This document shows positions 11,650-35,783 of a DNA stretch of 64,000 nt, piece after piece. The position numbers and the translations under genes are program-made. The notes beneath the pieces were generated by a model, which ran no database searches, had not been told where the DNA came from, and was given only the letters and a program-made list of their open reading frames with translations. The stretch is from Lutibacter flavus (GTDB lineage Bacteria; Bacteroidota; Bacteroidia; Flavobacteriales; Flavobacteriaceae), in NCBI RefSeq assembly GCF_900188355.1, contig NZ_FZNX01000001.1:419754-483753 (forward strand). The letters run 5' to 3'. Numbering within the stretch: the first letter of the stretch is position 1; each line of letters begins with the position of its first letter.

Positions 11650-11665
11650 TTTAATAAGATTTAAA

Positions 11666-12411: not shown

Positions 12412-12441
12412 TTGTTTAATACACAAATATACATATATTTG
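12412..12441 (+). promoter_or_regulatory. Promoter of the rightward PL6 gene
   Basis: TTG at 12412, a 19-base spacer, then TATATTTG at 12434 to 12441, a good fit to the Bacteroidota primary sigma consensus. The last four bases of the -7 box are also the start of the first operator copy, so a bound repressor would block it. Confidence 0.6.
12424..12431 (-). promoter_or_regulatory. -7 box for the leftward RraA/PL6 operon
   Basis: The minus strand reads TATATTTG 38 bases before the RraA-like start. No good -33 box is seen at 19 to 21 bases; the shared operator would cover that region. Confidence 0.4.
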
Positions 12442-12465
12442 GTAAACCAAACTGGTAAACCAATT
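12438..12465. promoter_or_regulatory. Tandem GntR-type operator, two TGGTAAACCA copies
   Basis: TGGTAAACCA occurs at 12440 to 12449 and 12453 to 12462, centres 13 bases apart. The form matches the TTGGTATACCAA consensus of UxuR/ExuR, which belong to the same FadR group of GntR proteins as the regulator encoded at 32703. It sits between divergent promoters of the RraA/PL6 operon and the PL6 gene at 12481. Confidence 0.7.
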
Positions 12466-12480
12466 TAAAAATTTGTTAAA

Positions 12481-14805
12481 ATGAATTCAATAAAATTTTT
12501 TAGGCTTGTTTTAATACTATGTTTAGTAGTGTTAGTTTCGTGTGATAAGAGTACAAATAAGGAAGTGTTAGTGTCAACTAAAGAAACCTTATTTTTAGCA
12601 ATTTCTGAGGCAACGCCTGGAACAGAAATTATACTTGCTAATGGCAGTTATAAAGATGTTACTATAGAGTTTAAAGGAGAGGGGACTAAAGATGCTCCTA
12701 TAGTTTTAAGGGCAGAAACTCCAGGGAAGGTATTTATTGAAGGTGTTTCAAATTTAATGTTGGGTGGTAGTTATTTAGTAGTTGATGGCTTGTATTTTAG
12801 AAATGGGTACACGCCTACAAAAAACGTAATTGCTTTTAGAATCAGCCCGGAAGAGGTGGCCACTAATTGCCAAGTAACCAATTGCGTGATCGTAGATTTT
12901 AATCAGCTATCACGAGATAAAGACGATCTATGGGTTCAGTTTTATGGCAAACACAACAGCTTAGATCATTGTTATATTGCAGGGAAAACAAATAGAGGAC
13001 CTACAGTTAGAGTAGATTTAAAAGGAAACCAAAGTATAAGAAATTTTCATAAAATAGAATACAATCATTTTGGGCCTAGACCTCGAAAAGGAGGGGCAAG
13101 TGGAGAAACTATTCAGTTAGGTAGCAGTTTTACTTCTATGTCGCCAAGTAATACTTTGATAGCTAACAATTTGTTTGAGGAGTGTAATGGTGAAGTTGAA
13201 GTTATTTCAAGTAAAACAAATTTTAATATAATTAGAAATAATGTATTTTATAAAAGTGAAGGTTCCGTAGTAACACGTCACGGAAATTACTGTACAATTG
13301 ATGGGAATTATTTTATTGGTGATGGTGTAAATAAAAATGTTGGAGGAATTAGAATTGTAAATACTGGACATTGGATTGTAAATAACTATTTCTACAATTT
13401 AATTGGTGAGAACTTTAGAAGTCCGTTGGCAGTTATGAATGGAATTCCAAAATCTCCTTTAAACAGATACAACCAAGTAACCGATGTTGTAGTTGCTTAT
13501 AATACCTATGTAAATTGTAAGTCGCCTTGGCAATTTGGAGTAGGCACAAATATTGCTCAAAAAGATGTTTTGCCGTTGTCTGAAATTCGTTCAGCTATAG
13601 CCTTAAGAACGGAAGTTGCAAACAATGTTATTTATAATACTGCAGGTGATACACATTTAATAATTGAGCATGATAAAGCAGATGGAGTAAAATTTAAAAG
13701 TAACGTAATCAACAACCAAGGCATCGATTTTAAAGATAAGAATCGTTTTATTACAAGTGATTTTGAGTTGACAAAAATTTCGGAGAATATATTCATGCCA
13801 ACGGGAATTTCAACAGAAATTGAACCTTATCACGGGTTTGGTTTTGAGGATATTAAAACAGATCTTTTTGGAGCTTCAAGAGAAAATTCAGTTAGCTTAG
13901 GAGCTATGATTGCAGGACAAGGGAAAGACCCAAAAATTCTAGATAAGAAAAAATATGGTGCAAGTTGGTATGATTCTGAAAAACCGGATTATGAAGCTAA
14001 CATAATTGAAGTAACTACTTTAGAAGGAGATTTGGCAGCTAAAATTGCAGCAGCCAATGCAGGAGATATTTTAGAATTGAATGCAGGAACCTACACTATT
14101 TCAACTTCATTAAAGATAGATAAACCTTTGACAATACAATCTAAAGGGACTGAAAAAGCTCAAATTGTTTTTGATGGAAAAGAAGATTTGCCAGTATTTG
14201 AATTGAATCCATATGGTATTTTAACTTTAAAAAATATTCAGCTTTCCGGAAATGGAAAACAGTATGCTTTTGCAAGTTTAAAAGAAAACATGTCTAATCA
14301 TTTTGGATTGTCAGTTAGGGACTGTGAAATCAGTAATTTTAAATATGTATTAAAGGCGTATAAGCAAACCTTTGCTGAAGAAATTACTTTTGCAAATAGT
14401 CAAATTTCAAACTGTGAAAACGGGATTGAACTTTCAGAAGAAATCAATGACAAAGGCGATTACAGCGTAGAATATTTAACTGTTGATAATTGTAAATTTA
14501 AGGAGGTTAAAAGTAATGTGATAGATTATTACAGAGGTGGTTATGATGAATCTACAATTGGAGGTAATTTAAAGGTTAGCAATAGTACATTTGAAAAATG
14601 TGGAGGAAAAGAAGAGAATGGTATTTTATTGAATACAAGGGGTATTGTAAATGTAGCTATTGAAAATAACACTTTTAAAAATAATAAGGTAAAATTAGTG
14701 GCGCTTTTATGGGGTGCTAAAAATAATACACATTCTAATAATAAGCTTCAAAACTCTGGAGAAATAAGAGTAGAGGAAAATTTAAAAATGAAATTGATGT
14801 ATTAG
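12481..14805 (+). CDS. PL6 family alginate lyase, lipoprotein
   Basis: 774 residues with a lipoprotein signal peptide (VLVSC, Cys21). The N-terminal PL6 beta-helix carries Lys245 (ISSKTNFN) and Arg266 (TRHGN) at the catalytic 21-residue spacing, plus GASGETIQLGS of the calcium-site region. A second beta-helix begins near residue 515 (LEGDLAAKIAAANAGDILELNAG). It cleaves alginate or its oligomers by beta-elimination; endo or exo mode cannot be read here. It is the first gene of a rightward operon with the heparinase-like lyase, the gluconokinase/6PGDH fusion and the NRAMP-like carrier. The start is fixed by the operator and promoter directly upstream. Confidence 0.92.
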   Translation: MNSIKFFRLVLILCLVVLVSCDKSTNKEVLVSTKETLFLAISEATPGTEIILANGSYKDVTIEFKGEGTKDAPIVLRAETPGKVFIEGVSNLMLGGSYLVVDGLYFRNGYTPTKNVIAFRISPEEVATNCQVTNCVIVDFNQLSRDKDDLWVQFYGKHNSLDHCYIAGKTNRGPTVRVDLKGNQSIRNFHKIEYNHFGPRPRKGGASGETIQLGSSFTSMSPSNTLIANNLFEECNGEVEVISSKTNFNIIRNNVFYKSEGSVVTRHGNYCTIDGNYFIGDGVNKNVGGIRIVNTGHWIVNNYFYNLIGENFRSPLAVMNGIPKSPLNRYNQVTDVVVAYNTYVNCKSPWQFGVGTNIAQKDVLPLSEIRSAIALRTEVANNVIYNTAGDTHLIIEHDKADGVKFKSNVINNQGIDFKDKNRFITSDFELTKISENIFMPTGISTEIEPYHGFGFEDIKTDLFGASRENSVSLGAMIAGQGKDPKILDKKKYGASWYDSEKPDYEANIIEVTTLEGDLAAKIAAANAGDILELNAGTYTISTSLKIDKPLTIQSKGTEKAQIVFDGKEDLPVFELNPYGILTLKNIQLSGNGKQYAFASLKENMSNHFGLSVRDCEISNFKYVLKAYKQTFAEEITFANSQISNCENGIELSEEINDKGDYSVEYLTVDNCKFKEVKSNVIDYYRGGYDESTIGGNLKVSNSTFEKCGGKEENGILLNTRGIVNVAIENNTFKNNKVKLVALLWGAKNNTHSNNKLQNSGEIRVEENLKMKLMY

Positions 14806-14859
14806 TTTATAAAGTATTTTACTTTTTAAAGATTCATATAATCAAATAATATTTAAATA

Positions 14860-17124
14860 ATGAAATTCAAGTTTTTAATTTTTTGCAGTTATTTCTTTTT
14901 ATGTCAATTTGTAATTTCGCAGGAAATACCATCTAGAAAGGTACTAAATACTTCTCAAATTTCTAAATATTTAAAAGAAGATGTTGAAAAGGACTTAAGC
15001 GAAAACGGCAAGATTTCAAAAGAGAAATTGGCAAAATATTTTCGCGAAAAATTTTCTGAACGCTATTTTTATAATTGGAAAACCTTTAATACTAGATTTG
15101 AGGATTATAAGAAACTTTATAAAGAAAAGGAAGGTTCTCATACTGAAAGAGCATTAGATCATCTTTCAAAATTTTCAGATAGTACTCAATGGATTTTACC
15201 CTTTAATTATTTAAATGGAGAACCCGTAAATGCATATGCATTAAGGCACCTTGCACGTCAACACAAAATGGTAGATATTTCTTTTTACTATAATTATCAA
15301 AATAAAGATTCAAAATTTTTAAATTATTTTACAGATCAGTTAAAATCTTTAAATGCTGCTTTAAGTGTTGATGAATTTGAGAAAATTGAAGATGGAAATG
15401 GTGTTTATGAAGCGTTTCGTTCTGGTTATCGTGTATTAAATTGGCTTCAAATTCATAATATGTTTTTAGGAGAAGAAACGTATTCCGATGAAGATCAATT
15501 AACAACTATAGCTACATTATTGCAACATGCTGCATATTTGTATGAACGTAACCCTGAGTTTCATGCAGGAAATCACCAAACAAGAGGTTTGTCTGCTTTA
15601 GCAATGATTTCCATAGTATTACGTGATTTTAAAGGAACTGATGTTTGGTATACCCATTCAATGAAATTATTAGAAGAACATTTATCAAAAGAAATTAACG
15701 ATGATGGTTTTCAATTTGAACGTTCTGTTCACTATCATATAAGTGATATTGAAAATTATTATTTTGTTTATCAATTAGCAAAAACTAGTGGAATAGCAGT
15801 AAATACTTTTTGGGAAGAAAAACTTAAATCACTTTTTACAACACTTACCAAAATTTCATTTCCAGATAAATCTGCACCTGTTTTACAAGACGATACTGAT
15901 AATCCCTGGGCCGAGAAGAATGACATTTCTGGTGCTTTAACATTAGGATATTTGTTGTTTGAGGACCCAGAAATGGGATATTTTGCGAATAACAAAGTAC
16001 AAGCGAAAATGTATTGGTATTTGAATGAAAATCAATTACAATTATTAAATTCAATCAATAAAGAAAAGCCAAGTTTTAAATCTGTTTCTTTTCCAACTAC
16101 TGGTTATTATATTTCGAGAAATGACGCTCCTGATGCAGAAAATATGATGATTATTTCTGCTGGATTGGATGCTGATAAACCAGATCACCAACATGGAGAT
16201 ATGTTAGGTATACAAGCAATGGCAAATGGAAAAGTAGTTTTACCCAATTACCAAGTTAGATATTCCTTATCAGATTTAGAATTGTTTAAAAACTCTATGG
16301 TAAAAAATGTTGCGTTGGTGGATAATGAGTTGCAGGGAAAACGATACACTTCTAATCAAGGAGGAAGTGGTTTTGGAAAGTTTCAAACTTTGCCAAATCC
16401 TAAAGTAATAACTTGGAATACAGATAAAAACTTAGATTTATTTGTGGGTTCGCATGATGGTTTTGAAAATGTTGGAGTAGCATATTCGCGTCAGGTTATT
16501 AATATTAAAAATGACTTTTGGATTGTAAAGGATAACTTTTCTTCTGAAAAAGAGCATAATTACAAGCAAGTTTGGCAAGGACATTATACACTTGAAAATC
16601 AACCAAATTTATTACGAGCAACTTTTGATGATGCAACGGGATTTGATATTTTTCAATTGAATAAAATTGATGAGGTAACTAATTCTGGAACTCGTGGAAA
16701 ACATTGGTCGGTGGTGTCTAAAAATAAGGTGAATGAGTTTAGTTTTATAACAGTGCTATACCCTTATTCAGGTTACGACAATAGAATTAATGAATTAGAA
16801 GAAGTTCCAGATTTAAAAGGATGGAAATTAAATGATTCTAATTGGAATCTTGAAGGTGAAAATGTGGTTTCACTTTCAAAAGAAAATCAATTGTTAGTAT
16901 ATTCAATAAACAAACTAAATATAGGAGGTTTTAGTATTGAAACTTTTAATATAGCTGATTTATATATTTCAATTATTGAAAATAAAATAACCATTCAAAA
17001 TATTGGAGATAAGGAAACTAACTTGAAAATTAACGGAGTAATTGAGGTTATTATGGATGGTGAAAATACAACCAGTAATATAAAATTAACTCCTGGGAAA
17101 ATTTTGGAGTGTGTTTTAGAATAA
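14860..17124 (+). CDS. Heparinase II/III-like polysaccharide lyase
   Basis: 754 residues with a cleavable signal peptide (FLCQFVISQ). Residues about 90 to 360 are the helical heparinase II/III N domain (HAGNHQTRGLSALAMISI; Asn238 and His239 in the usual Asn-His site, and ERSVHYHISDIENYY). Residues about 410 to 620 are the beta-sandwich domain with the conserved DHQHGDMLG. The fold is shared by PL12, PL15, PL17, PL21 and PL39; the sequence lacks the PL17 signatures of the gene at 22862. Its place in the locus suggests an oligoalginate lyase, with PL15 or PL39 as candidates, but the family is not settled. It probably works in the periplasm. Confidence 0.8.
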   Translation: MKFKFLIFCSYFFLCQFVISQEIPSRKVLNTSQISKYLKEDVEKDLSENGKISKEKLAKYFREKFSERYFYNWKTFNTRFEDYKKLYKEKEGSHTERALDHLSKFSDSTQWILPFNYLNGEPVNAYALRHLARQHKMVDISFYYNYQNKDSKFLNYFTDQLKSLNAALSVDEFEKIEDGNGVYEAFRSGYRVLNWLQIHNMFLGEETYSDEDQLTTIATLLQHAAYLYERNPEFHAGNHQTRGLSALAMISIVLRDFKGTDVWYTHSMKLLEEHLSKEINDDGFQFERSVHYHISDIENYYFVYQLAKTSGIAVNTFWEEKLKSLFTTLTKISFPDKSAPVLQDDTDNPWAEKNDISGALTLGYLLFEDPEMGYFANNKVQAKMYWYLNENQLQLLNSINKEKPSFKSVSFPTTGYYISRNDAPDAENMMIISAGLDADKPDHQHGDMLGIQAMANGKVVLPNYQVRYSLSDLELFKNSMVKNVALVDNELQGKRYTSNQGGSGFGKFQTLPNPKVITWNTDKNLDLFVGSHDGFENVGVAYSRQVINIKNDFWIVKDNFSSEKEHNYKQVWQGHYTLENQPNLLRATFDDATGFDIFQLNKIDEVTNSGTRGKHWSVVSKNKVNEFSFITVLYPYSGYDNRINELEEVPDLKGWKLNDSNWNLEGENVVSLSKENQLLVYSINKLNIGGFSIETFNIADLYISIIENKITIQNIGDKETNLKINGVIEVIMDGENTTSNIKLTPGKILECVLE

Positions 17125-17178
17125 CAAAATTTAAATAGCTTTTCCTTAAAAGGAAGGGTTCTGATAATAAAATATTAT

Positions 17179-19074: not shown

Positions 19075-19111
19075 GTTAATTAAAGTCAAAATATAATAAC
19101 AACCAAATAAC

Positions 19112-20386: not shown

Positions 20387-20471
20387 TTTTTTTATCGCTT
20401 TGAAATAAGATAAATTTACATAGCTAGATGTTAAAATTGATGTAAAATTTTTTTAGCTTATTTATTAATTA

Positions 20472-20503
20472 TATATTTGGTAAACCAAAGTGGTAAACCA
20501 GTT
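20472..20503 (+). promoter_or_regulatory. -7 box with overlapping tandem GntR-type operator
   Basis: TATATTTG at 20472 to 20479 overlaps TGGTAAACCA at 20478 to 20487; a second copy is at 20491 to 20500, again 13 bases between centres. The arrangement is the same as at 12434 to 12465. It lies 14 bases before the third PL6 gene and gives the PL6/PL17/kdgF operon its own regulated start. No clear -33 TTTG is seen. Confidence 0.7.
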
Positions 20504-20516
20504 TAAATAATAGAAA

Positions 20517-22856
20517 ATGAGCTTTATAAAATCAAAATTCACCTTTTTTGCATTTTTATTTTTAATACTAATTTCTTGCAATTCTAATAAGGAAACAGGA
20601 GTTTTGGTAAAAACTATAGATGAATTTAACAATGCTGTTAAAAGTGCGGTGCCAGGTACCGTAATTAAACTTTCTAACGGCGTTTGGAAAGATACCGAAT
20701 TGGTTTTTGAAGGAAAAGGAACAGAAGAAGAACCTATTAAGCTTACGGTTGAAGAAAAAGGTGAAGTAACCCTAGAGGGTGCATCTAATCTTCAAATTGC
20801 AGGTGAACATTTAATTGTTGAAGGGCTAGTTTTTAAAAACGGATATACACCAACAAATGCAGTTATTTCTTTTAGAAAAAACAGGGAGGAAATGGCAAAT
20901 AATTCCCGATTAACAGAGTGTGTTATTGACAATTTTAATAATCCTGAACGTCAAGTTCAAGATTATTGGATTACTATTTACGGAAAGAATAATCGAATAG
21001 ACCATAATCATATTTCTGGAAAAAAGAATTTAGGTGTTACTATGATTGTTGGTTTAGATACTGAAGAGAGTAGAGAGAACAATCATAAAATAGATCATAA
21101 CTATTTTGGACCACGTCCAACCTTTGGAAATAATGGAGGTGAAACTTTAAGAATCGGAACGAGCCATCATGCATTGGAAAATTCTAATACCTTGGTGGAA
21201 TCTAATTATTTTGATAGATGTAATGGAGAGCACGAAATTATTTCAAATAAAGCGTGCCAAAACACATTTAAGTATAATACATTTTTTGAATGCACAGGAA
21301 CTTTAACTATGCGTCATGGAAATGAAACATTAGTTGATGGAAATGTATTTATAGGAAATAACAAACCAAGTACAGGTGGTGTTCGTGTAATTAACGAAAC
21401 ACAAACTGTTATTAATAACTACCATGTTGGTTTAACGGGTTATCGTTTTAGAGGAGCATTTGTTATGATGAATGGTGTGCCAAATTCACCACCAAATCGA
21501 TACGTACCTGTTATAAATTCTAAGGTAAATAATAATACGTTTGTTAATTGCGACCATATTCAGTTATGTGCAGGAAGTGATTCAGAAAGAAGTCAGGCAC
21601 CAAGAACTTCTGAAATTTCAGGAAACATTTTTTATAATGAAAACAAGAAAGATATCTTTACTGTTTATGATGATATTAGTGGAGTTACATTTAAAGATAA
21701 CATTTTAGGTAAAAACTCAGAAACTAGTATTAAAGAAGGTTTTGAAAATGTAGATATTAAATTAGTGAAAAACGAACAAGGTTTCTTAATACCTACTTCA
21801 AATCAAATAAAAACTAAGGTTACAATTAGTCCAAATGTTGCAACTAAAGAAAATACTGGAATAGATTGGTATTCAAAAACGGATAAAAGCGTAGCGTTAA
21901 ATTCTGGTCAAACAATTAAAGTAAAAGTAGGCATTAACACCTTATTTGAAATCGTAAAAAAATCTGAAGCTGGAGATATTATAGAGTTGGAAGAAGGCGG
22001 AACATATTTGTTAACCAAAGCGGTTCAAATTAATCATCCACTTACATTTAAAACTTCAGGAAAAGAAAAAGCAACAATTTTGTTTGAAAGAATGATGGCT
22101 TTCGAAATTCAAAATGGCGGAAGCTTATCTTTAGAGAATATTTCATTTGATGGTGCAAAATCTCCTGATTATGCAGGTAATTCAGTGATTAGTACAAGTA
22201 AAAATTCAATGACTGAAAATTATAAATTGTTTATTGAAAATTGTGAGTTTAAAGATATGGTAATAAATCATTCTTTTGATGTGCTACGAGTTTCTAAAGG
22301 AACATTTGCTGATACCATAAGCATTCAAAATTCAACATTTAAAAATATTACAGGTCATATTGCGGCATTAGATACAGAAACAGATGATATTGGAGCTTAT
22401 AATGTAGAATACTTCTTGTTGAAAAACAATACAATTTCTGATTTGCAAGGTGCAGCTTTGAGATTATATAGAGGAGGAAAAGATGAAAGTACCTTCGGAC
22501 CATTTCTAGAAGTAGATCATAACGTTTTTGATAATGTTGGTCATGGTAAAAAGAATAAATATAACGCAGCAACGTCTTTATATGGAGTGCAGGTAAATGA
22601 TATAACAAATAACATATTTACTAACTGTAAACCAATGGAAATGCATTTAGTTGTTGGTGATCCAATAGTAAATATTTTTAATAATAACATCTATAAATCA
22701 GATGCAATTAAAATCTCTGGAGATGAAAAGTATACGATTAAAAATCTTTGGAATTTTAATCCTGAATTTGAGAAAGAAAATTATAAGTTGAAAAAACAAT
22801 CTAAACTGGCAGGTAAAGGAACTGATGAATTAGATTTAGGTGTGATTTATAAATAA
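20517..22856 (+). CDS. PL6 family alginate lyase, lipoprotein (third copy)
   Basis: 779 residues, lipoprotein signal (LILISC, Cys21). Lys245 (ISNKACQN) and Arg266 (MRHGN) keep the PL6 catalytic pair at 21-residue spacing, and NNGGETLRIGTS is conserved. A second beta-helix starts near residue 475 (INTLFEIVKKSEAGDIIELEEGG). It shares the two-domain plan of the other two PL6 proteins here but is clearly diverged, which argues for different block preferences (mannuronate, guluronate or mixed) rather than recent duplication. It is the first gene of an operon with PL17 (5 bases later) and kdgF. Confidence 0.92.
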   Translation: MSFIKSKFTFFAFLFLILISCNSNKETGVLVKTIDEFNNAVKSAVPGTVIKLSNGVWKDTELVFEGKGTEEEPIKLTVEEKGEVTLEGASNLQIAGEHLIVEGLVFKNGYTPTNAVISFRKNREEMANNSRLTECVIDNFNNPERQVQDYWITIYGKNNRIDHNHISGKKNLGVTMIVGLDTEESRENNHKIDHNYFGPRPTFGNNGGETLRIGTSHHALENSNTLVESNYFDRCNGEHEIISNKACQNTFKYNTFFECTGTLTMRHGNETLVDGNVFIGNNKPSTGGVRVINETQTVINNYHVGLTGYRFRGAFVMMNGVPNSPPNRYVPVINSKVNNNTFVNCDHIQLCAGSDSERSQAPRTSEISGNIFYNENKKDIFTVYDDISGVTFKDNILGKNSETSIKEGFENVDIKLVKNEQGFLIPTSNQIKTKVTISPNVATKENTGIDWYSKTDKSVALNSGQTIKVKVGINTLFEIVKKSEAGDIIELEEGGTYLLTKAVQINHPLTFKTSGKEKATILFERMMAFEIQNGGSLSLENISFDGAKSPDYAGNSVISTSKNSMTENYKLFIENCEFKDMVINHSFDVLRVSKGTFADTISIQNSTFKNITGHIAALDTETDDIGAYNVEYFLLKNNTISDLQGAALRLYRGGKDESTFGPFLEVDHNVFDNVGHGKKNKYNAATSLYGVQVNDITNNIFTNCKPMEMHLVVGDPIVNIFNNNIYKSDAIKISGDEKYTIKNLWNFNPEFEKENYKLKKQSKLAGKGTDELDLGVIYK

Positions 22857-22861
22857 AAACA

Positions 22862-25132
22862 ATGATAAATTCAATAAAATTAATAGTACTATTTGTTGCG
22901 ATAACTTTTGTTTCATGTAAACAAGATATTGCTAATGATTCTAAAAAAATAGCTTCAGAAGAAAGTAACCATCCAAGTTTAATTTTAACTGCTCAAGGTG
23001 TAAAAGATATTAGAGTACAATTGGGTGATATTCCAATTTTCGATAAAACTTTAGAAAAGGTAAAGGCAGAAATAGACGCTGAAATTTCATTAGGGATTGA
23101 AACGCCAATACCATTAGATTATTCTGGTGGATTCACACATGTACGCCATAAACGTAACATGGTAGTACTGCAAAAAGCAGGTGTTTTATATCAGATTTTG
23201 GATGATAAAAAATATGCAAAGTATGTAAAAGAAATGCTAATGCAATATGAGGAAATGTACAAAACATTACCATTGCACCCAAAAACAAGATCTTATGCTA
23301 GAGGTAAGTTGTTTTGGCAATGTCTAAATGATTCTAATTGGTTAGTTTATGTAAGTCAGGCTTATGATTGTGTTTATAATTATTTATCTGAAGAAGAACG
23401 AAATAAGCTAGAAACAAATTTATTTAGACCATTTGCAGATCATATTTCAATAGACAGTCCACAATTTTATCAAAGAGTCCACAATCATAGTACTTGGGGA
23501 AATGCAGCTGTAGGTATGATTGGTTTGGTAATGAATGACCAAGAATTAATTGATCGTGCTTTGTATGGTATTAAAGGTGTGGATTTAGATAAAAAGGCTA
23601 AAGATGATGATGGAGGGTTTTTAAATAAAGATGGGAAAGCTGGTTTTTTAGCAAATATAGAAGAACCTTTTTCACCAGATGGTTATTATAATGAAGGACC
23701 ATATTATCAGCGTTATGCTATGTATCCTTTTTTAATTTTTGCAGAAGGACTACATAACGTAAAACCAGAATTGAAAATATTTGAATACAAAGAAGGTGTA
23801 TTGTTAAAATCTATTAATGCCTTGTTAAATTTATCTGATGCAGATGGCGAATTTTTTCCGTTGAATGATGGTCAAAAAGGAATGTCTTACTACACAAGTG
23901 CTTTAGTTACTGCGGTAGATATTTCGTATCATTTTGGTACGCAAGATCCAGGTTTGTTATCAATAGCATCACTTCAAGATCGCGTTTTATTAGACGATTC
24001 TGGTCTTGCAGTAGCACTTGGTATAAAAAATGGTAAAGCAGCACCTTTCAATAAAAAATCTATTAACCTTTCTGATGGACCAAATGGCAAACAAGGAGGT
24101 GTTGCCATATTAAGAAATGAAGATATTGAATTAGTTTTTAAATATGCTGCACAAGGTTCTAGTCATGGTCATTACGATAAATTGTCTTATTCTTTATATG
24201 AAAAAGGCGAAGAAATTCTTCAAGATTATGGTTTAGCACGATTTGTAAATATAGAGCAAAAAGGTGGTGGAAATTACCTAAAAGAAAACAAGACTTGGGC
24301 AAAACAGACCATCGCACATAACACATTAACACAAAATGAAACCTCACATTTTAATGGGAAGTATGAAATAGGAAGTCAGCATCATTCGGTACTAAACTAT
24401 TTTTCTTCTGAAAATGAAAACGTACAAGTTGTAAGTGCAAAAGAAAGTAATGCATATCCTGGAACAGAAATGCTTCGTACCATGGCAATTATAAAAGACG
24501 AAGATTTTGAAAAACCATATATGTTAGATCTTATGAAAGTGACTTCTAATAAAGCAAATAAATATGATTTTCCTTATTACTTCTTAGGGCAAGTATTACA
24601 AACAAACTTTGAATATAAAACACCTAAAACATTAAATACTTTAGGAAGTAAAAATGGGTATCAACATTTATATGTAGAAGCAACAGCAAAAGCTTTCAAT
24701 GAAAACAGTAAGCTATCATGGTTAAATGAAGGTAAATTTTACACTTTAACATCTTTAACTAATAGTAATGATGAGTTATTATTTACCAGAATTGGGGCAA
24801 ACGATCCAGAATTCAATTTAAGACGTGAAGCAGCTTTCATGTTAAGACGAAAAAATACTAAAAACACACTTTTTATTTCTATAATTGAAGCGCATGGAGG
24901 TTACAGTCCAGTTACAGAATCTGCTGTAAACTCAAACAGTAGTATAAAAGAATTAAAAGTCGTTCTGGATTCTGATGCATATACAGCAATAGAAATTACG
25001 AATATAAATGGTACTATGAAGCTGTTTATAACAGTAAATACAAATGCTTCAAAACAGCAATCACACAAATTAAATATAAACAAAAAGGCTTACCAATGGG
25101 TTGGACCTTATTATTACACAAACATTAATTAA
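22862..25132 (+). CDS. PL17 oligoalginate lyase, lipoprotein
   Basis: 756 residues with a lipoprotein signal (TFVSC, Cys19). PL17 signatures are strong: FTHVRHKRN, LFWQCLNDSNWLVYVSQAYDC, VHNHSTWGNAAVGMIG and SPDGYYNEGPYYQRYA. Asn208-His209 correspond by motif to the Asn-His catalytic pair of Alg17C, and the Tyr residues in DGYY are near the expected acid/base. A C-terminal heparinase II/III-like beta domain contains SSHGHYDKLSYSLYEKG. Exolytic PL17 enzymes release unsaturated monosaccharide from alginate oligomers, the substrate for the KdgF-like product of the next gene. Location: periplasm-facing lipoprotein. Confidence 0.95.
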   Translation: MINSIKLIVLFVAITFVSCKQDIANDSKKIASEESNHPSLILTAQGVKDIRVQLGDIPIFDKTLEKVKAEIDAEISLGIETPIPLDYSGGFTHVRHKRNMVVLQKAGVLYQILDDKKYAKYVKEMLMQYEEMYKTLPLHPKTRSYARGKLFWQCLNDSNWLVYVSQAYDCVYNYLSEEERNKLETNLFRPFADHISIDSPQFYQRVHNHSTWGNAAVGMIGLVMNDQELIDRALYGIKGVDLDKKAKDDDGGFLNKDGKAGFLANIEEPFSPDGYYNEGPYYQRYAMYPFLIFAEGLHNVKPELKIFEYKEGVLLKSINALLNLSDADGEFFPLNDGQKGMSYYTSALVTAVDISYHFGTQDPGLLSIASLQDRVLLDDSGLAVALGIKNGKAAPFNKKSINLSDGPNGKQGGVAILRNEDIELVFKYAAQGSSHGHYDKLSYSLYEKGEEILQDYGLARFVNIEQKGGGNYLKENKTWAKQTIAHNTLTQNETSHFNGKYEIGSQHHSVLNYFSSENENVQVVSAKESNAYPGTEMLRTMAIIKDEDFEKPYMLDLMKVTSNKANKYDFPYYFLGQVLQTNFEYKTPKTLNTLGSKNGYQHLYVEATAKAFNENSKLSWLNEGKFYTLTSLTNSNDELLFTRIGANDPEFNLRREAAFMLRRKNTKNTLFISIIEAHGGYSPVTESAVNSNSSIKELKVVLDSDAYTAIEITNINGTMKLFITVNTNASKQQSHKLNINKKAYQWVGPYYYTNIN

Positions 25133-25145
25133 ATATATACAAATT

Positions 25146-25523: not shown

Positions 25524-25708
25524 AAAAAATATTTTAGTCCAATAAGAGAAGACTTTATAGAACCTAAAAAATAGTATTAGTTTAGAGTAATTAGTTCTTA
25601 AAATAATATTTTTTGTTCACATTATCAATAAATTAGAGTTGTTTTGTTCTTTTTCGCTAATTGTTTAAAAAAACTTTATTTTAATTTTTTTTTAACAAAT
25701 TTTTAATA

Positions 25709-25752
25709 TATATTTGGTTTTCCAAACTGGTTAACCACTTTGGAAAACCAAA
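25709..25752 (+). promoter_or_regulatory. Triple GntR-type operator over the susC promoter
   Basis: TATATTTG (25709 to 25716) runs into three decamers: TGGTTTTCCA (25715), TGGTTAACCA (25728) and TGGAAAACCA (25741), with centres exactly 13 bases apart. The outer two are reverse complements of each other and the middle one is self-complementary, so the whole 40 bases form one large near-perfect palindrome. It is the strongest operator in the locus and lies before the susC leader. Confidence 0.7.
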
Positions 25753-25789
25753 TTAAATATAGTATTAATAATTAAAACTCAATTAAAAA

Positions 25790-25878
25790 ATGAAACGTGA
25801 AGATCTCTAAATGGAAAAAAGGACAGGTGCACGCCTATCCTTTCTAGTAAAAAATTACTTCTTTTAGGAGGGAAGTAA
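25790..25878 (+). promoter_or_regulatory. Structured 5' leader of susC with possible small ORFs
   Basis: Downstream of the promoter are a 10-base-pair hairpin (25818 to 25843) with loop TGCACG and one mismatch, then a second hairpin (TTACTTC / GAAGTAA, 25855 to 25878) whose loop and 3' side contain TAGGAGGG. Two short reading frames fit: MKREDL (25790 to 25810) followed at once by MEKRTGARLSFLVKNYFF (25811 to 25867). A related hairpin plus TAGGAGGG precedes the MFS gene at 33622. From 25879 to 26061 I see only AT-rich leader. Function unknown; attenuation or translational control is possible. Confidence 0.4.
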
Positions 25879-26061
25879 AATTAAAATTACATGTTATTAC
25901 TTTTATAAAAACACGATCTAACAAAAATACAAAAAACAATTCAAAATATAGAATTGACTGGTTTTTATAAAATGGACGATTAAAAGATTTATAATCTATT
26001 CGTAAAAAATTAATATTTAATCGTATTAATCAAAATTAAACTTAAACATAAAAATTTAATT

Positions 26062-29000
26062 ATGAATTTAAAAATCAAGCTAATGCTAATGCTAATGTTG
26101 ACAGTCAACATTACTTTAATGGCTCAGGATAGCTTTTCAATTACAGGTACAGTAGTATCTGCGACTGATAATTCGCCAATACCAGGTGTAAGTATTATTA
26201 TTAAAGGTACTACAAAAGGTGCCTCAACAGATTTTGATGGTAATTTTGCTTTAGAAGTTACACAAGGAGATATTTTAACAGTATCTTTTTTAGGGTTTAA
26301 AACAAAATCTGTCCCAATTATTAACAATCAAGCATTAACTATTGCATTAGTTGAAGACACGAGTGCACTTGATGAAGTTGTTGTAATTGGTTATGGTACA
26401 TCAAAAAAATCACATTTAACAGGGTCAATTTCAAAAGTTGTAAACGATGATTTGGATCAGGTTGCTGTATCTAGGGTAGATGATGCCTTAGTTGGGCAAG
26501 TTTCCGGGGTTAATATTCAGGCAACTGACGGAGAAGCAGGTGCAGCACCTACTATTAGTATCAGGGGTGTAGGTTCTATGGCAGGTGACTCAACACCTTT
26601 AATTGTTGTTGATGGAGTTATTGTAGATTCAGATTTTTTAGGGTCTTTAAACATGAATGATGTGCAATCTTTTGAAATATTAAAAGATGCTGCTTCATCG
26701 TCTATATACGGTTCTAAAGGTGCCAATGGTATTATAATGATATCTATGAAGCCTGGTCTTGATGGTAAAACAAGAATAAATTACAGTACCTATGTAGGTT
26801 TTAAAGAAGCTAGACATAGTGATGCTTATACTTTTTCAATTGCTGAAACTGCAGCAGCGGAATTAGCAGCAAATGGAGTGCTTTCAGATAGAACTAAATA
26901 CAAACAATTAATAGGTATTGATCGTTCTTGGCAAGATGTAATTTTTGATGGAGGTATGATTACAAGTCATTCTTTATCTTTAAGAGGTGGAAACGATAAA
27001 ACTAAGTTTGCAACAAGTGTAAACTTTTCAGATGATGAAGGTGTTTTATTAACTGATAATTTTACGAAGTATGGAATGAGACTTAAAATAGATTCTAAAT
27101 TAAATGATAAGTTTTCTATTGGTGCTAGTTTTAGTCCTTCATATACGGAAAGAAGACGTTTTGATGGGTCTACCCATGATATAAATAGACAAACAAATTG
27201 GTTGCCTGTATATCATGATGAAAATACTATTCAATATGTAGATAGAAATATTTATCCAGATGTTCAAGTTGGAGATTATGCTACGCAACGTCATTTTGAT
27301 AATTATGATTTATATGGTGATGGAAGCACTTTAGTTGACATTAGTAATACATCAAACACCAATCCGGCGGCTAAAGTATTAGAACGTGAACGTTATGATA
27401 AGAAATTTAAATTATTCAGTAGTTTTTATGGTCAATATAAAATTACAGATGATTTAACTTTTAAAAGTATGGTTTCTGGATCTTATCAAGATACTAAAAG
27501 ATCAAGATGGCAAGGTGTTTTATCAAACAGAAATGGAGCGTCTGCTGCATCGATGAATGAAATTACGCAAAGAAGTATTTATTTAATTTCAGATAACTTC
27601 TTAATGTATAATAAAAGTTTTGATAAACACGATATTAGTGCAACCTTAGGTATGGTTTTTGAATCTACAGATGAGTTCTTTTCATCTATTTCAGGTACTG
27701 GGTATACAAATGATGGTGTTAAGCAAATTACAAATGCAGCTACAATTTCTGGTGCAGATGCTTTTGAATGGGAAAAGAATGGTATATCATATGTGTCTAG
27801 ATTTAATTATGCATTCGATAATAAATACTTAGCATCTATAAGTTTAAGACGTGATGGAAGTTCAATTTTCGGATCTGAATATAAATATGGTAATTTCCCA
27901 GCAGCATCAATAGGTTGGAATATGTCAAACGAAAGCTTTTTAGAAGATAGCGACGTTGTTAATAATTTAAAGGTTAGAATTAGTTACGGTGTTACAGGTA
28001 ATGACCGTTTAAATACAGGTAGTGTAAATCCGGATTCAAGCAGTAGTACAAGTAGTTTAAGTACTGGTGATAAATTAGTGGATTTCTACCCTTCATTGGC
28101 TTTATTGTCGGCTACTACTGCAAGTGTAAGTGGAGCTCTTCAATCTGGTTTTTCTCCTCTAAATATTGCGAATCCAGAATTAAAATGGGAGCGTTTAGTT
28201 GAAATTAACCCTGGTATAGATTTTGGTTTTTACAATAACGTAATTTCAGGTTCTATAGATTGGTACCAAAGAACAAGTGATCAATTATTATTAAATAACC
28301 CAGTATCTTATACAACTGGTTTTTCTAATGCTTTGGTTAACTTGGGTGAAGTTAAAAACGAAGGTTTTGAGTTTGAATTAAGAACAAGAAACATTTCATC
28401 TGAAGAATTTAGTTGGAAATCTTCTGTAATAGCAACTACAAACAAAAATACATTGGTAGATTTCGCAGATTCTAACGGACAAATTCAAAATATTGATGCT
28501 AAAAGAGCAGCAGAATGGATTAATTTAGAAGGTATGCCAATTTCAACTTATTATGGTTGGGTTGTAGATAGAGATATTCCATTAGAATATTTAAATAATG
28601 CATATCATCCAATAGGAGGTGAAGCACAAGATGTGTATGTTAAAGATTTAAATGGAGATGGATTAATTGATGATGAGGATAAAGCGGCCTTAGGAGATCC
28701 ATATCCAGATTTAGTATGGAGTTTTACAAATGAATTTAATGTTGGAGATGTAGATTTTAGTTTTATGTTTCAAGGAAGTCATGGTGCTGAAATTAGAAAT
28801 ATGGGAGATCAGTATATCTTTAACCAATTTAATAGTGGTCAGGATTTTAATCCAGCAACAACTCCAGATCAAGATTTTATTAAACAAAAAATCTTTACAG
28901 ATGATATTATTCAAGATGCTTCCTACATTGCATTGCGTAACATTAACATTGGTTATAATTTCTCTGAAGATGTATTGTCTAAATTGAACATTTCTAAGTT

Positions 29001-29166
29001 AAGAGTTTATGCAGCAGGGCAAAACTTAATGTACAAGACGGCTGATGATTATACTGGTTTTAATCCTGAATCTGTAGATAGAACTGGTCCTACAACGTAT
29101 GGGTATCAAAGAGCAGGATCCCCTATATATAGTACTATATCTATTGGGTTAAATCTTGATTTTTAA
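26062..29166 (+). CDS. SusC-like TonB-dependent receptor for alginate oligosaccharides
   Basis: 1,034 residues. Signal peptide, then a CarboxypepD-reg-like domain (ITGTVVSATDNSPIPGVSIIIKGTTKGASTDFDGNF is split across residues about 25 to 65), a TonB-interacting region with VVVIGYGTSKKSHLTGSIS, a plug (about 120 to 230: GVNIQATDG, PLIVVDGVI, ILKDAASSSIYGSKGANGIIMI) and a 22-strand barrel ending in STISIGLNLDF. SusC proteins import oligosaccharides through the outer membrane with a SusD lid. The next gene is the partner SusD, and the substrate is assigned from the surrounding alginate lyases. Confidence 0.93.
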   Translation: MNLKIKLMLMLMLTVNITLMAQDSFSITGTVVSATDNSPIPGVSIIIKGTTKGASTDFDGNFALEVTQGDILTVSFLGFKTKSVPIINNQALTIALVEDTSALDEVVVIGYGTSKKSHLTGSISKVVNDDLDQVAVSRVDDALVGQVSGVNIQATDGEAGAAPTISIRGVGSMAGDSTPLIVVDGVIVDSDFLGSLNMNDVQSFEILKDAASSSIYGSKGANGIIMISMKPGLDGKTRINYSTYVGFKEARHSDAYTFSIAETAAAELAANGVLSDRTKYKQLIGIDRSWQDVIFDGGMITSHSLSLRGGNDKTKFATSVNFSDDEGVLLTDNFTKYGMRLKIDSKLNDKFSIGASFSPSYTERRRFDGSTHDINRQTNWLPVYHDENTIQYVDRNIYPDVQVGDYATQRHFDNYDLYGDGSTLVDISNTSNTNPAAKVLERERYDKKFKLFSSFYGQYKITDDLTFKSMVSGSYQDTKRSRWQGVLSNRNGASAASMNEITQRSIYLISDNFLMYNKSFDKHDISATLGMVFESTDEFFSSISGTGYTNDGVKQITNAATISGADAFEWEKNGISYVSRFNYAFDNKYLASISLRRDGSSIFGSEYKYGNFPAASIGWNMSNESFLEDSDVVNNLKVRISYGVTGNDRLNTGSVNPDSSSSTSSLSTGDKLVDFYPSLALLSATTASVSGALQSGFSPLNIANPELKWERLVEINPGIDFGFYNNVISGSIDWYQRTSDQLLLNNPVSYTTGFSNALVNLGEVKNEGFEFELRTRNISSEEFSWKSSVIATTNKNTLVDFADSNGQIQNIDAKRAAEWINLEGMPISTYYGWVVDRDIPLEYLNNAYHPIGGEAQDVYVKDLNGDGLIDDEDKAALGDPYPDLVWSFTNEFNVGDVDFSFMFQGSHGAEIRNMGDQYIFNQFNSGQDFNPATTPDQDFIKQKIFTDDIIQDASYIALRNINIGYNFSEDVLSKLNISKLRVYAAGQNLMYKTADDYTGFNPESVDRTGPTTYGYQRAGSPIYSTISIGLNLDF

Positions 29167-29177
29167 GATAAAGTTTA

Positions 29178-30623
29178 ATGAAAAATTATAAAGATATTAT
29201 GAAACATATAAAATATATAGCTTTACTTATAATAGTAAGCGTAATCACTTCTTGTAGCAGTGATTTCTTAGAGCCAACTCCAGATTCTGGTATAACTGCC
29301 GACTCGTATTTTAATAATGCGGATGAAGTAGAAACTGGTATTATTGCAATTTATGATGCTTGGCAAGGTGTAAACAGTACTAGTTTAAGTGATAATCACA
29401 GTATTCAGTATGAATTTTACCTTACAGAAATGCGTAGTGATAATACAAGAACTAAATCTCAGGAAGGTGAAGCAGCACAATTTGAGTTCTATAATGTAGA
29501 AGCCACTAATGGTATTGTTGGTAACTATTATGCGAGTATGTACAATACAATTTTTAGAGCAAATATAGTTTTAGATAACTTGGGTGTTGTAAGTAATGCT
29601 GACAAAGCTGTAGCTTTTGAAGCAGAAGCTAAATTTAACAGAGCATTGGCTTATTTTAATTTAGTTAGATTGTATGGAGACGTGCCTTTAATTGATAAAG
29701 TAATTTCACCTTTAGATACAGAAGTTCAATATACAAGAGTTGCTACATCTTCTGTTTATGATTTAATAGTAAGTGATTTAACTACTGCAATAGGCGGTTT
29801 AGATAACACTTATAAAACAAGAGCATCAAAAGCTGCTGCGCAAGCATTATTAGCTAAGGTGCATTTAACCTTAGGAAACTATTCAGAAGCTCAATCACTT
29901 TGCGAAGCTGTTATAGGTAGCGGGTTTGGATTAATGGATAACTTTAATGACGTATTCTATCAAGAAAGAAATAAAGAAATTATTTTTGCTATCGGTTATG
30001 AGTCTGCATTATCTTCAGATAGTCAAAACTTTTCAGCTGAGTGGATGAACGGTGTAGGTAGAACTAGCGGGGTTAATTATGTAACAAATGATGTAATAGC
30101 TGCTTTAGATGAGTTTGGAGGAGATAGAACACAATATTCATATAGAAACGATGCAAGTCAAACAACACAAAATCAGGTAACAAAATATTTACCTAATGGT
30201 GAAAGTGGAGGTGATGATGGTAAAACATTTATTAATGATGCTACATTAGCAGGTAATGATTGGATTGTATTACGTTATGCTGATGTTTTATTAATGCATG
30301 TTGAAGCTATATTAGCAGGAGGAAATGAAACTGTAGATGCGCAAGCGCTTTCTTCATTCCAAAAAGTAAGAGATAGAGCTGGTTTAACATCAACGGTTAC
30401 AATTGTTACTAAAGATGCATTGTTATTAGAAAGACGTGTAGAATTAGCTTTCGAAAATCACAGATTATTTGATTTAGTTAGATTTGGAAGAGCAGAGTCT
30501 GTACTTTCAGCATTTTCTGCTGTAAATGGTTTAGGATATTCATCTTCTGATTTATTATTACCTATCCCTCAAAGAGAAATTAACCTAAGTAATGGTCAAA
30601 TGAGCCAGAATTCTGGTTATTAA
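29178..30623 (+). CDS. SusD-like surface glycan-binding lipoprotein
   Basis: 481 residues from 29178; an ATG at 29199 gives a tighter lipoprotein signal (MKHIKYIALLIIVSVITSC) and may be the real start. RagB/SusD fold with TPR helices: N-terminal DFLEPTPDSGITADSYFNNADEVE, FNRALAYFNLVRLYGDVPLI in the centre, and the C-terminal RRVELAFENHRLFDLVRFGRA with LLPIPQREI. It sits on the outer surface, captures alginate oligomers and closes the SusC channel. It starts 11 bases after susC, so the two are cotranscribed. Confidence 0.93.
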   Translation: MKNYKDIMKHIKYIALLIIVSVITSCSSDFLEPTPDSGITADSYFNNADEVETGIIAIYDAWQGVNSTSLSDNHSIQYEFYLTEMRSDNTRTKSQEGEAAQFEFYNVEATNGIVGNYYASMYNTIFRANIVLDNLGVVSNADKAVAFEAEAKFNRALAYFNLVRLYGDVPLIDKVISPLDTEVQYTRVATSSVYDLIVSDLTTAIGGLDNTYKTRASKAAAQALLAKVHLTLGNYSEAQSLCEAVIGSGFGLMDNFNDVFYQERNKEIIFAIGYESALSSDSQNFSAEWMNGVGRTSGVNYVTNDVIAALDEFGGDRTQYSYRNDASQTTQNQVTKYLPNGESGGDDGKTFINDATLAGNDWIVLRYADVLLMHVEAILAGGNETVDAQALSSFQKVRDRAGLTSTVTIVTKDALLLERRVELAFENHRLFDLVRFGRAESVLSAFSAVNGLGYSSSDLLLPIPQREINLSNGQMSQNSGY

Positions 30624-30656
30624 TTAAAGTATCATTTTTAATTTTAAAAAGTAAAC

Positions 30657-31607
30657 ATGAAAAAAATAATAAAATTTAAAAACCGTGTATCGTCTTCGAT
30701 TTTAGGTGTTATAGCATTAACAGCTGTATTATCTTTATCGTCTTGTGATCCTTCTTTAGATTCTTTATCATATGATTTGCCCGAAGCAAATTCTAAAGAA
30801 GATTTAACGCCACCAGCTGCTAGTTTTTCAGCAGCAGAAACAGATGATTTTTTAACTTGGACGTTTGGTAATACATCTTCAAGTGCTACAGATTATGCTT
30901 GGGATTATGGAGATGGAAATTCTTCTACTGGTGTAGATGGAGTAAATACGTTTCCGGGTGAAGGAACTTTTACAGTAACGTTAACTGCTACTGATAAACT
31001 TGGGGTAACTAGTACATTCTCAAAGGAAGTTGTAGTAGAGGAACCACCAATACCAGCAGCTATATCTCCTACTATTTTAAATGGTGATTTTAGCAGCGGA
31101 CAGGATGATTGGAAATTTTCTACTTTCACTGGAGGAACAACAAGTCCTTTTAATTCTAGTAGCGATGGGTCTAACATAAATTATGATGGTTCAGACAATG
31201 GTGGAAAAACACCAGGGGCTAAATGGACTAATGGCACGTCTTCTGGAATTTATAGAAGTTCTAGCACTAGGATTGCATACCAAGCTTTAACTGTCTCTCC
31301 TGGTAGAGAATATGTTTTAGAATATGAATATGCTATTAAAAATGATAATGATACAAATGGTGGAGCTAAAATAGTTGGTGAAATATTAAATGGTCATTTT
31401 AGTGATGGTGCAGATGCTTTAGTTAGTTCTGATGCTGGTGAATATATAGTAAGAAATGAAGGAACTAATCTTTTAGGAAAAGGAAATTTTACATTAGTGA
31501 GACAGCAGTTTACTGCAAGTGATTCTGGTTTAGTTTCAATATTTATTTGGGGAGAGACTACTCAAGATGCATATGTTGATAATGTTAAAGTTTATCCAGT
31601 AGATTAA
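30657..31607 (+). CDS. PKD-domain surface glycan-binding lipoprotein
   Basis: 316 residues, with a lipoprotein signal ending LSSC. Residues about 50 to 130 form a PKD domain (ATDYAWDYGDGNSSTG...FPGEGTFTVTLTATDKLG). Residues about 140 to 316 look like a jelly-roll carbohydrate-binding module, opening with LNGDFSSGQDDWKF and closing with DAYVDNVKVYPVD. The position after SusCD matches the SusE/SusF-type surface glycan-binding proteins of other loci. Alginate binding is inferred from context; no family of carbohydrate-binding module is assigned. Confidence 0.8.
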   Translation: MKKIIKFKNRVSSSILGVIALTAVLSLSSCDPSLDSLSYDLPEANSKEDLTPPAASFSAAETDDFLTWTFGNTSSSATDYAWDYGDGNSSTGVDGVNTFPGEGTFTVTLTATDKLGVTSTFSKEVVVEEPPIPAAISPTILNGDFSSGQDDWKFSTFTGGTTSPFNSSSDGSNINYDGSDNGGKTPGAKWTNGTSSGIYRSSSTRIAYQALTVSPGREYVLEYEYAIKNDNDTNGGAKIVGEILNGHFSDGADALVSSDAGEYIVRNEGTNLLGKGNFTLVRQQFTASDSGLVSIFIWGETTQDAYVDNVKVYPVD

Positions 31608-31615
31608 GTTAGAAA

Positions 31616-32518
31616 ATGGTAAAAGAAAAAGTTTGTTATAAGTTTTTATTGGTGATTACATTAATGCTCAGTGTGAGCATTAATGTAAGTTGCCAAGAGG
31701 ATTCTGTAACAAATAAAGTTGTAGAATTACCTGAAAATGGTGATAATATAGAAGAATCAACTATTTTACCTAACATTGATTTAAATAACTGGAAAGTAAC
31801 TTTGCCCATTGGCAAACCAACGGAAGTTGCACCTCCTGAAATATTGGATTATGCAACAAATGAAACGTTAAAACCATTTTTTTATAATGATTCTATAAAA
31901 GGAGCCTTAGTTTTTTACACCTATCCAAATGCTTCAACAGCCAATTCGGCTTATTCAAGAACAGAATTGAGAGAGCAATTGGTTCCGGGAAGTAACAAAA
32001 CAAATTGGAGTTTTTCGCAAGGTGGAAAAATGAAAGGCACTCTTGAAATAGCTGAAATGTCCAAGGATGTAAATGGAGATTATTATAGAGCTATTATCAT
32101 GCAAATACATGGTATTTTAACAGATACTCAAAAAACATTAATTGGTGCTGACGATAATAATGCACCTCCAATGTTAAAAATTTATTGGGTAAATGGTAAG
32201 GTTAGGGTAAAAACAAAAGAGTTGAAAGATTTGAATGCAACTGATACAGAGATGTTGCATGAAGAAGCTTGGGGAGATGATGATGGGTATACTTTTCCAG
32301 AGTATGTAGGTTTTGAGAAATTTACATTAGAAGTAAAAGTATCAAATGGAAGAATGGAAGTGATATTAAATGAAGAAGATTCAGTAGTTTATGAAAATAT
32401 TCATATGCAAAAATGGGAAATATTTCAAAACTATTTTAAAGCGGGAAATTATTTTGTGTCTAAAGATAAAGAATCATTTTCAAAAGTAAAATATTATGAG
32501 TTAGAGGTAACTCATTAA
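31616..32518 (+). CDS. PL7 family alginate lyase
   Basis: 300 residues with a probable lipoprotein signal (INVSC, Cys26). The PL7 jelly-roll carries its three signatures: SRTELREQ (RxELR), IMQIHG (QIH) and NYFKAGNYFVS (YFKAGxYxQ, with the last Gln replaced). In characterised PL7 enzymes QIH goes with activity on guluronate-containing blocks and QVH with polymannuronate. It is probably the surface endolyase that makes oligomers for SusCD, the last gene of the susC operon, 8 bases after the PKD gene. A terminator follows. Confidence 0.92.
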   Translation: MVKEKVCYKFLLVITLMLSVSINVSCQEDSVTNKVVELPENGDNIEESTILPNIDLNNWKVTLPIGKPTEVAPPEILDYATNETLKPFFYNDSIKGALVFYTYPNASTANSAYSRTELREQLVPGSNKTNWSFSQGGKMKGTLEIAEMSKDVNGDYYRAIIMQIHGILTDTQKTLIGADDNNAPPMLKIYWVNGKVRVKTKELKDLNATDTEMLHEEAWGDDDGYTFPEYVGFEKFTLEVKVSNGRMEVILNEEDSVVYENIHMQKWEIFQNYFKAGNYFVSKDKESFSKVKYYELEVTH

Positions 32519-32567
32519 TTAGGTAATTGATAAGTTTGAATTAGTTACTATTTTTTGGTTAGAAGAG

Positions 32568-32591
32568 CTGGTCTTTTTTAAAAAAGACCAG
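32568..32591 (+). terminator. Terminator of the susC-PL7 operon
   Basis: Perfect 24-base palindrome beginning CTGGTCTTTTTT. The A/T run lies inside the stem, so it may work in both directions. Confidence 0.7.
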
Positions 32592-32681
32592 TTATTCAAA
32601 AATTAAAAAAGAGAGCCTTTTAGTTTAAATTGTAATTATGGGTTTTATTGTGAAGTTTTTTTTAAATTTATAAAATAAATC

Positions 32682-32691
32682 TGGTTAACCA
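32682..32691. promoter_or_regulatory. Single GntR-type operator before the regulator gene
   Basis: TGGTTAACCA, identical to the middle site of the susC operator, 11 bases before the gntR start. Only one copy is present here, which suggests weaker autoregulation. A near -7 box (TAAATCTG) overlaps it. Confidence 0.6.
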
Positions 32692-35712: not shown

Positions 35713-35783
35713 ATATATTTTATTTAAAGAGAGTTTTTAAATAGACAATTCTTCTTTTTTTTAAATTATTAAAAAATAATAAA

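Follow-up and report, generated by a model that had tools for sequence, protein, structure and literature searches.

Which protein reads the short palindromes that precede the alginate genes of Lutibacter flavus, and what does the constant distance between their copies mean? The question is raised by a stretch of 64,000 nt of this genome, hereafter the window, in which eight such sites stand at four promoters: those of two lyase genes of family PL6 (starting at 12481 and 20517), of a susC gene, and of ausR, a gene starting at 32703 whose product is a GntR/FCD-type regulator (Table 1). The analysis makes it very probable that these sites are the operators of an AusR regulon, in which the 32703 product would act as a repressor, block the alginate promoters from palindromes spaced 13 bp apart, and be released by a metabolite.

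Operator pairs and the regulator that probably reads them

All eight sites listed by the first-pass annotation are present where it had placed them, and the 13-base distance between the centres of multiple copies was borne out at all three arrays. Its view that the same decamer recurs everywhere holds for six of the eight; the outer susC copies (TGGTTTTCCA and TGGAAAACCA) depart from it, and the core common to all eight is the palindrome TGG-N4-CCA. In the window, TGGTWWACCA is found exactly six times against 0.25 expected, a count reached in 0 of 100 shuffles. Across the genome scanned (3.89 Mb) the decamer alone is not enriched, with 31 places versus 45 for the reversed pattern, while the exact pair TGGN4CCA-N3-TGGN4CCA occurs four times, always at the three window promoters with arrays. 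The pair, and not the single decamer, is therefore the informative unit. With up to two mismatches, 57 pairs at 13 bp were counted, versus 29 for the reversed control. The genome scan that the annotation had proposed thus found no equally good (exact) pair at an unrelated gene, and the result that would have refuted its reading did not appear.

Outside the window lie 25 decamers: 23 within open reading frames (ORFs), one of which (L186) has TAnnTTTG fused by chance, one in an AraC-type/aldo-keto reductase intergenic region and one at a distal PL7 gene. Lone decamers elsewhere were considered as extra targets and rejected, given that 23 of the 25 are in ORFs and that the AraC-type/aldo-keto reductase site has no -7 box.

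The distribution of regulator and pairs was compared in 199 Flavobacteriaceae genomes, where a regulator match was defined by E <= 1e-60. Exact 13-bp pairs occur in 49 of them (reversed control, 0/199) and a 32703-type regulator in 50; 48 genomes have both, two the regulator only, one the pair only, and 148 neither. The three discordant genomes are explained by their sites: the pair without AusR (G154) sits inside a susC-like coding region, and the two genomes with AusR and no exact pair (G019, G132) carry, 5' of susC, 13-bp arrays of relaxed TGG-N4-CCA sites. On this co-occurrence, the sites most likely form one regulon that is read by the FCD-type GntR protein 32703.

In this protein, PF00392 (GntR) and PF07729 (FCD) both score above cut-off, and D151, H155, H200 and H222, which we take to be the FCD metal site, are invariant in 17/17 aligned regulators. 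The AlphaFold model has a mean predicted local distance difference test (pLDDT) score of 76.5, with residues 1-10 and 79-86 below 50, and among 50 matches listed the solved folds closest to it belong to GntR-type proteins (query TM-scores, 0.41-0.51); given these moderate values, the placement of the domains is uncertain.

A further target is predicted outside the window. Among five one-mismatch 13-bp pairs in the genome, gene context was read for the pair TGATTAACCA-AAC-TGGTTAACCA, which lies about 48 bp 5' of a second PL7-type gene, roughly 135 kb from the window edge (368 aa, with a lipobox-like start as read by eye). Joined to the first site of this pair, in the register seen at susC, is a TAAAATTG box that differs from TAnnTTTG by one letter. 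The regulon predicted here would thus comprise PL6 (12481), PL6 (20517), susC, ausR, by autoregulation through the lone operator at 32682, and the distal PL7 gene. The first-pass annotation had placed operators before both PL6 promoters; both do carry arrays, but a third PL6 gene was missed. It forms with an RraA-like gene a pair (9244-12385, minus strand) divergent from PL6 12481, and the two sides share 95 bp of intergenic DNA, in which the 12440/12453 array lies; through this array the RraA-PL6 pair probably also belongs to the regulon.

Promoter geometry and arrays in related loci

At the three window promoters with arrays, the first operator overlaps the TG of the -7 box TATATTTG, as the first-pass annotation had observed; at ausR the box is only a degenerate TAAATCTG. 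Flavobacterial primary-sigma promoters carry TAnnTTTG at -12 to -5, according to the available part of PMC9723704, which would place the operators at about -6..+4, +8..+17 and +21..+30. This array-box geometry would fit a repressor that occludes the promoter and the start site.

We scanned the best 80 of 263 regulator relatives, which with the window gives 81 sources; these are not independent, since several loci are near-identical and L019/L024 and L050/L052 each come from one genome. In the 80 loci, neighbouring TGG-N4-CCA sites are separated by 160 distances of 60 bp or less, of which 159 are 13 bp and the remaining one is 26, and the reversed and four permuted palindromes gave none at 13 bp. 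Arrays of at least two copies number 116, in 74/81 sources, and 114 of them lie outside ORFs of at least 150 aa. TAnnTTTG is fused to an array end in 102 of the 116, and TTTGG array ends are preceded by TAnn in 101/125 cases, versus 23/328 for other intergenic TTTGG.

Copy number follows the gene. Arrays before susC are mostly triple (48, with 19 double and 2 quadruple); those before PL6, PL17, PL7, MFS and ausR genes are doubles only; 13 (2 triple) precede unclassified ORFs and 5 (2 triple) have no near gene. The 81 ausR promoters carry a single operator in 49 cases, a double in 9, a one-mismatch site in 7 and none in 16. The copy numbers of 3, 2, 2 and 1 that the annotation had read as graded repression are hence the usual order in relatives, susC > lyases > regulator, which supports the idea that repression would be graded by copy number. 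SusC is present in 74, SusD in 77, PKD in 61 and PL7 in 59 of the 81 loci.

In 14 of 49 cases the lone ausR operator is preceded, exactly 13 bp upstream, by a CCA that represents the right-hand end of a further operator (for example in L014, L021, L027, L029, L037, L053, L054, L056, L067-L069 and L074), which may be a decayed or half copy. The susC triple at 25715-25750 resembles one large inverted repeat centred on its middle operator; among relatives, 22/52 triples have outer cores that are exact inverted copies of each other, whereas 2000 shuffles averaged 10.5 such triples and never exceeded 17. AusR-type arrays in relatives are also found 5' of a gene whose product is small (about 300-325 aa) and secreted. 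Pfam detects in this product a type IX secretion system (T9SS) sorting tail alone, in 6/6 cases, and a model of it is too weak for use (mean pLDDT 56.6); we regard it as a candidate alginate-acting or alginate-binding protein.

In the proposed mechanism, GntR/FCD dimers of the 32703 product would, in cells without alginate, occupy the TGG-N4-CCA palindromes from the -7 box across the transcription start, and RNA polymerase would be blocked by operators in the positions given above. At promoters with two or three operators, the fixed 13-bp spacing would bring adjacent dimers into contact, so that they bind jointly; a graded set would be formed by susC, the two PL6 promoters, distal PL7 and ausR, and a metabolite of alginate breakdown would release the repressor. 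B-DNA makes one turn per 10.5 bp, and by this arithmetic the next site is rotated by about 86 degrees at 13 bp and by about 154 degrees at 15 bp, which would bring adjacent dimers, each on a different face, into close contact. We infer dimer-dimer contact and cooperative packing.

Several observations weigh against this account. No array was found in 7/81 sources, some of which end at contig ends; the two triples before unclassified genes mean that three copies are not unique to susC; and no operator of this kind stands at the MFS, SDR or kinase genes of the window. A strict site is absent from 23/81 ausR promoters, so autoregulation is not universal, and lone ausR sites mostly have no -7 fusion, with TA correctly placed in 13/49. 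The moderate AusR model says nothing on dimer-dimer contact. Finally, the best 80 of 263 relatives include no Zobellia record, and the likeness to the AusR of that genus lies in domains, locus and operators.

Spacings of 13 and 15 bp

Among 84 AusR-type loci, all distances of 11-20 bp between sites are 13 bp (169/169). When 395 Bacteroidota genomes were scanned (41 of the window's family and 354 others), exact 13-bp pairs were found in ten, all within the 41 and 0/354 elsewhere, with 3/395 for the reversed control. A regulator at E <= 1e-40 is present in 13/395 genomes. Ten are of the window's family, nine with exact pairs and the tenth (G344) with relaxed 13-bp arrays; the three regulators from other families (G229, G352, G368), at 48-50% identity, represent a sister type. 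In two of these three (L101, L102) the palindrome is paired at 15 bp beside alginate genes; the third (L103) has single sites alone.

The sister type was followed in one family, f5, where 92 of 298 genomes had a match and 30 sister-type loci were read. Close pairs occur in 16 of the 30 and none in 14, and the pairs within 20 bp (n=18) are spaced by 15 bp in 16 cases, 16 bp in two and 13 bp in none. The sites also differ in their central letters, which are TG or CA in 26/35 sister sites and AA, TA or TT in 187/207 sites of 13-bp arrays. In a tree of 68 of the 120 regulators, a branch with 100/100 support splits all 30 rows with 13 bp from all 20 rows with 15 or 16 bp; L101 and L133, counted separately in the spacing set and the tree, are the same place. 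The exact position of L127 in this tree is unsure, since L127 (like L103) has a long branch and the bootstrap did not converge.

The spacing thus has the look of a register that is inherited and specific to the regulator. Our tentative reading of these sequence comparisons is that the register is discrete, 13 bp for the AusR type and 15, sometimes 16, for the sister clade of alginate-linked FCD repressors, on nearly the same palindrome. Equally tentatively, dimer packing and not the half-site alone would decide which array each protein reads, and two such regulons could coexist in one cell. Several points count against it. A single locus, L127, separates host from regulator; the regulator for the 15-bp arrays of that genome, G652, was not found; there is one 14-bp case (L130); and the open-gap search that led there did not exceed its control, with 0-30 bases between two TGGTNNACCA found in 19 of 295 genomes of the class versus 23 for the reversed pattern. 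Most of its matches lay at odd distances, and the eleven stretches chosen by eye for short spacing or kin are a biased set.

The 15-bp spacing might instead reflect host lineage, through promoter geometry, or unrelated regulators. Nearly all 15-bp cases read come from the two families followed by choice, f5 and f56; host and regulator part company at L127 only, 14 of the 30 f5 loci have no close pair, and around two 15-bp pairs (L122, L124) the 19-20 kb read contain no homologue of the searched alginate genes. We nevertheless find this explanation rather unlikely in view of f56. There, G652 has at L127 an AusR-type regulator (55.6% identity) with two 13-bp pairs in its locus, beside 15-bp arrays elsewhere in the same genome, at PL6/PL17 and other genes (L125, L126, L131), and two other f56 genomes have sister-type regulators together with 15 or 16 bp (L123, L129).

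It is improbable that the operators act singly, with further copies only adding occupancy and the 13-bp spacing left behind by array duplication without selection. Lone ausR operators are conserved in 49/81 sources and presumably work, and a 13-bp duplication could give arrays; however, the copies differ in core and in spacer (13 versions of the 3-bp spacer) at a spacing that stays constant in 169/169, and the sister clade keeps another one, 15 bp in 16/18 close pairs. Least credible by far, and rejected on co-occurrence over the 199 genomes, is a reading of the sites by the LacI-type regulator of the same locus, whose existence qualifies the annotation's claim that the 32703 regulator is the only candidate: LacI proteins read palindromes too, and a close orthologue (E < 1e-130) is present in 33/199 genomes, 17 of them with exact pairs, but the exact pair is found in 0/14 genomes with this orthologue and no AusR and in 31/31 with AusR and no such orthologue, and a LacI homologue is present in just 22/81 AusR loci within the stretches read.

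With AusR as the reader, the outcome is a genome-wide predicted target list for the repressor of a polysaccharide locus, obtained from sequence alone, and an operator grammar that recurs across Flavobacteriaceae: a 13-bp register, a first site fused to the -7 box, and usually most copies at susC. Should the 13/15 split go with the regulator, the spacing could be read as a marker of which regulator belongs to which locus in Bacteroidota, and would give a direct handle on how FCD dimers pack without the N-terminal extension of NanR.

The locus and its relation to known systems

Table 1. Operators, promoter boxes and genes of the window, with secreted proteins from related loci.
Feature	Sequence or remark	Coordinates	Strand
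Operator copy 1, PL6 (12481) promoter	TGGTAAACCA	12440..12449	+
Operator copy 2, PL6 (12481) promoter	TGGTAAACCA, 13 bp from copy 1	12453..12462	+
Operator copy 1, PL6 (20517) promoter	TGGTAAACCA	20478..20487	+
Operator copy 2, PL6 (20517) promoter	TGGTAAACCA	20491..20500	+
susC operator copy 1	TGGTTTTCCA	25715..25724	+
susC operator copy 2	TGGTTAACCA	25728..25737	+
susC operator copy 3	TGGAAAACCA, reverse complement of copy 1	25741..25750	+
Lone operator 5' of ausR	TGGTTAACCA	32682..32691	+
-7 box, PL6 (12481) promoter	TATATTTG	12434..12441	+
-7 box, PL6 (20517) promoter	TATATTTG	20472..20479	+
-7 box, susC promoter	TATATTTG	25709..25716	+
-7-like box of ausR	TAAATCTG, degenerate, register as in other arrays	32676..32683	+
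Probable -7 box, divergent RraA-PL6 pair	TATATTTG, 8 bp from 12440/12453 array	12424..12431	-
PL6-type lyase	PF14592, divergent gene pair	9244..11697	-
RraA-like protein	divergent gene pair	11666..12385	-
PL6-type lyase	predicted target	12481..14805	+
Heparinase II/III-type protein	PL17-like lyase	14860..17124	+
PL6-type lyase	predicted target	20517..22856	+
PL17-type lyase	Alginate_lyase + Hepar_II_III_C	22862..25132	+
SusC-type transporter	predicted target of triple array	26062..29166	+
SusD-type protein		29178..30623	+
PKD-domain protein		30657..31607	+
PL7-type alginate lyase		31616..32518	+
AusR-type GntR/FCD regulator	234 aa	32703..33407	+
MFS transporter		33622..34908	+
SDR-type reductase		34948..35712	+
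SDR-type reductase		35784..36539	+
LacI-type regulator		36620..37645	-
Secreted protein, about 300-325 aa	related locus	L018:17717-18640	
Secreted protein, about 300-325 aa	related locus	L020:254-1162	
Secreted protein, about 300-325 aa	related locus	L059:19040-19960	
Secreted protein, about 300-325 aa	related locus	L081:18933-19907	
Secreted protein, about 300-325 aa	related locus	L082:18949-19875	
Secreted protein, about 300-325 aa	related locus	L084:18428-19393	

The 32703 gene lies within an alginate polysaccharide utilization locus (PUL), adjoined by the SusC, SusD, PKD and PL7 genes. The PL17 name of the heparinase II/III-type protein is presumed from its family, and the two SDR-type reductases (34948..36539) would, by their position, be DEH reductases. 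Also inside the locus are a GntK-type gluconokinase fused to 6-phosphogluconate dehydrogenase (17179-19074), which of the 81 AusR loci, within the stretches read, the window alone has, and an NRAMP-family transporter (19112-20386) with homologues in 15/81. The NRAMP gene of G652 (L127:8101-9357) is preceded at about 170 bp by a 13-bp operator pair, and such a metal transporter may belong to the regulon. A protein of 2274 aa (1858-8682, minus strand) combines thrombospondin type 3 repeats, a P-domain, leucine-rich repeats and a T9SS sorting tail.

The first-pass annotation had likened the sites to those of both UxuR and ExuR. In the available part of PMC4494728, operators of the FadR subfamily have TKGT/ACMA boxes, as here, and the likeness extends to UxuR, with a 2-nt GT-AC gap, but not to ExuR, whose gap is 3 nt; the FadR set of that paper has 0 Bacteroidetes factors. 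The 32703 product scores far below the NCBIfam cut-offs for UxuR and ExuR (74.1 of 442 and 62.6 of 396 bits).

The system is of a kind already published. In Zobellia galactanivorans, the GntR-family AusR (Dudek et al. 2020, NAR, doi 10.1093/nar/gkaa533, as cited in the available parts of PMC7874173, PMC8286568 and PMC8073546) represses most alginate genes and is released by degradation intermediates. Both systems have a GntR-family regulator in an alginate system with SusD, PKD, PL7, PL17 and PL6, and target promoters that carry one, two or three operators, which in the window are predicted from sequence. The GntR and FCD domains, the position in an alginate PUL and these operators assign the window system to the AusR kind. 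It is thus known in kind, and the window is, by these predicted features, a new and well-resolved AusR member, unlike Zobellia in having three PL6 genes, an NRAMP gene and the gluconokinase-dehydrogenase fusion. Those available accounts of Zobellia AusR mention no operator spacing, and we claim no novelty for it.

For the arrays, the closest comparison is Escherichia coli NanR, of which, in the available part of PMC8012715, three dimers bind closely repeated operators cooperatively; binding is weakened by a sugar acid and by spacers lengthened by six nucleotides. NanR reads direct GGTATA repeats, whereas each copy in the window system is a palindrome, and NanR has a 32-residue N-terminal extension, whereas in the 32703 product, as in full-length AusR rows, the conserved II of the first helix is preceded by 17 residues. 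These proteins have no long extension of the NanR type; with so short a start, any dimer contact must use another surface. What the two systems share is a GntR/FCD-type regulator and closely repeated operators at a fixed spacing, here 13 bp throughout.

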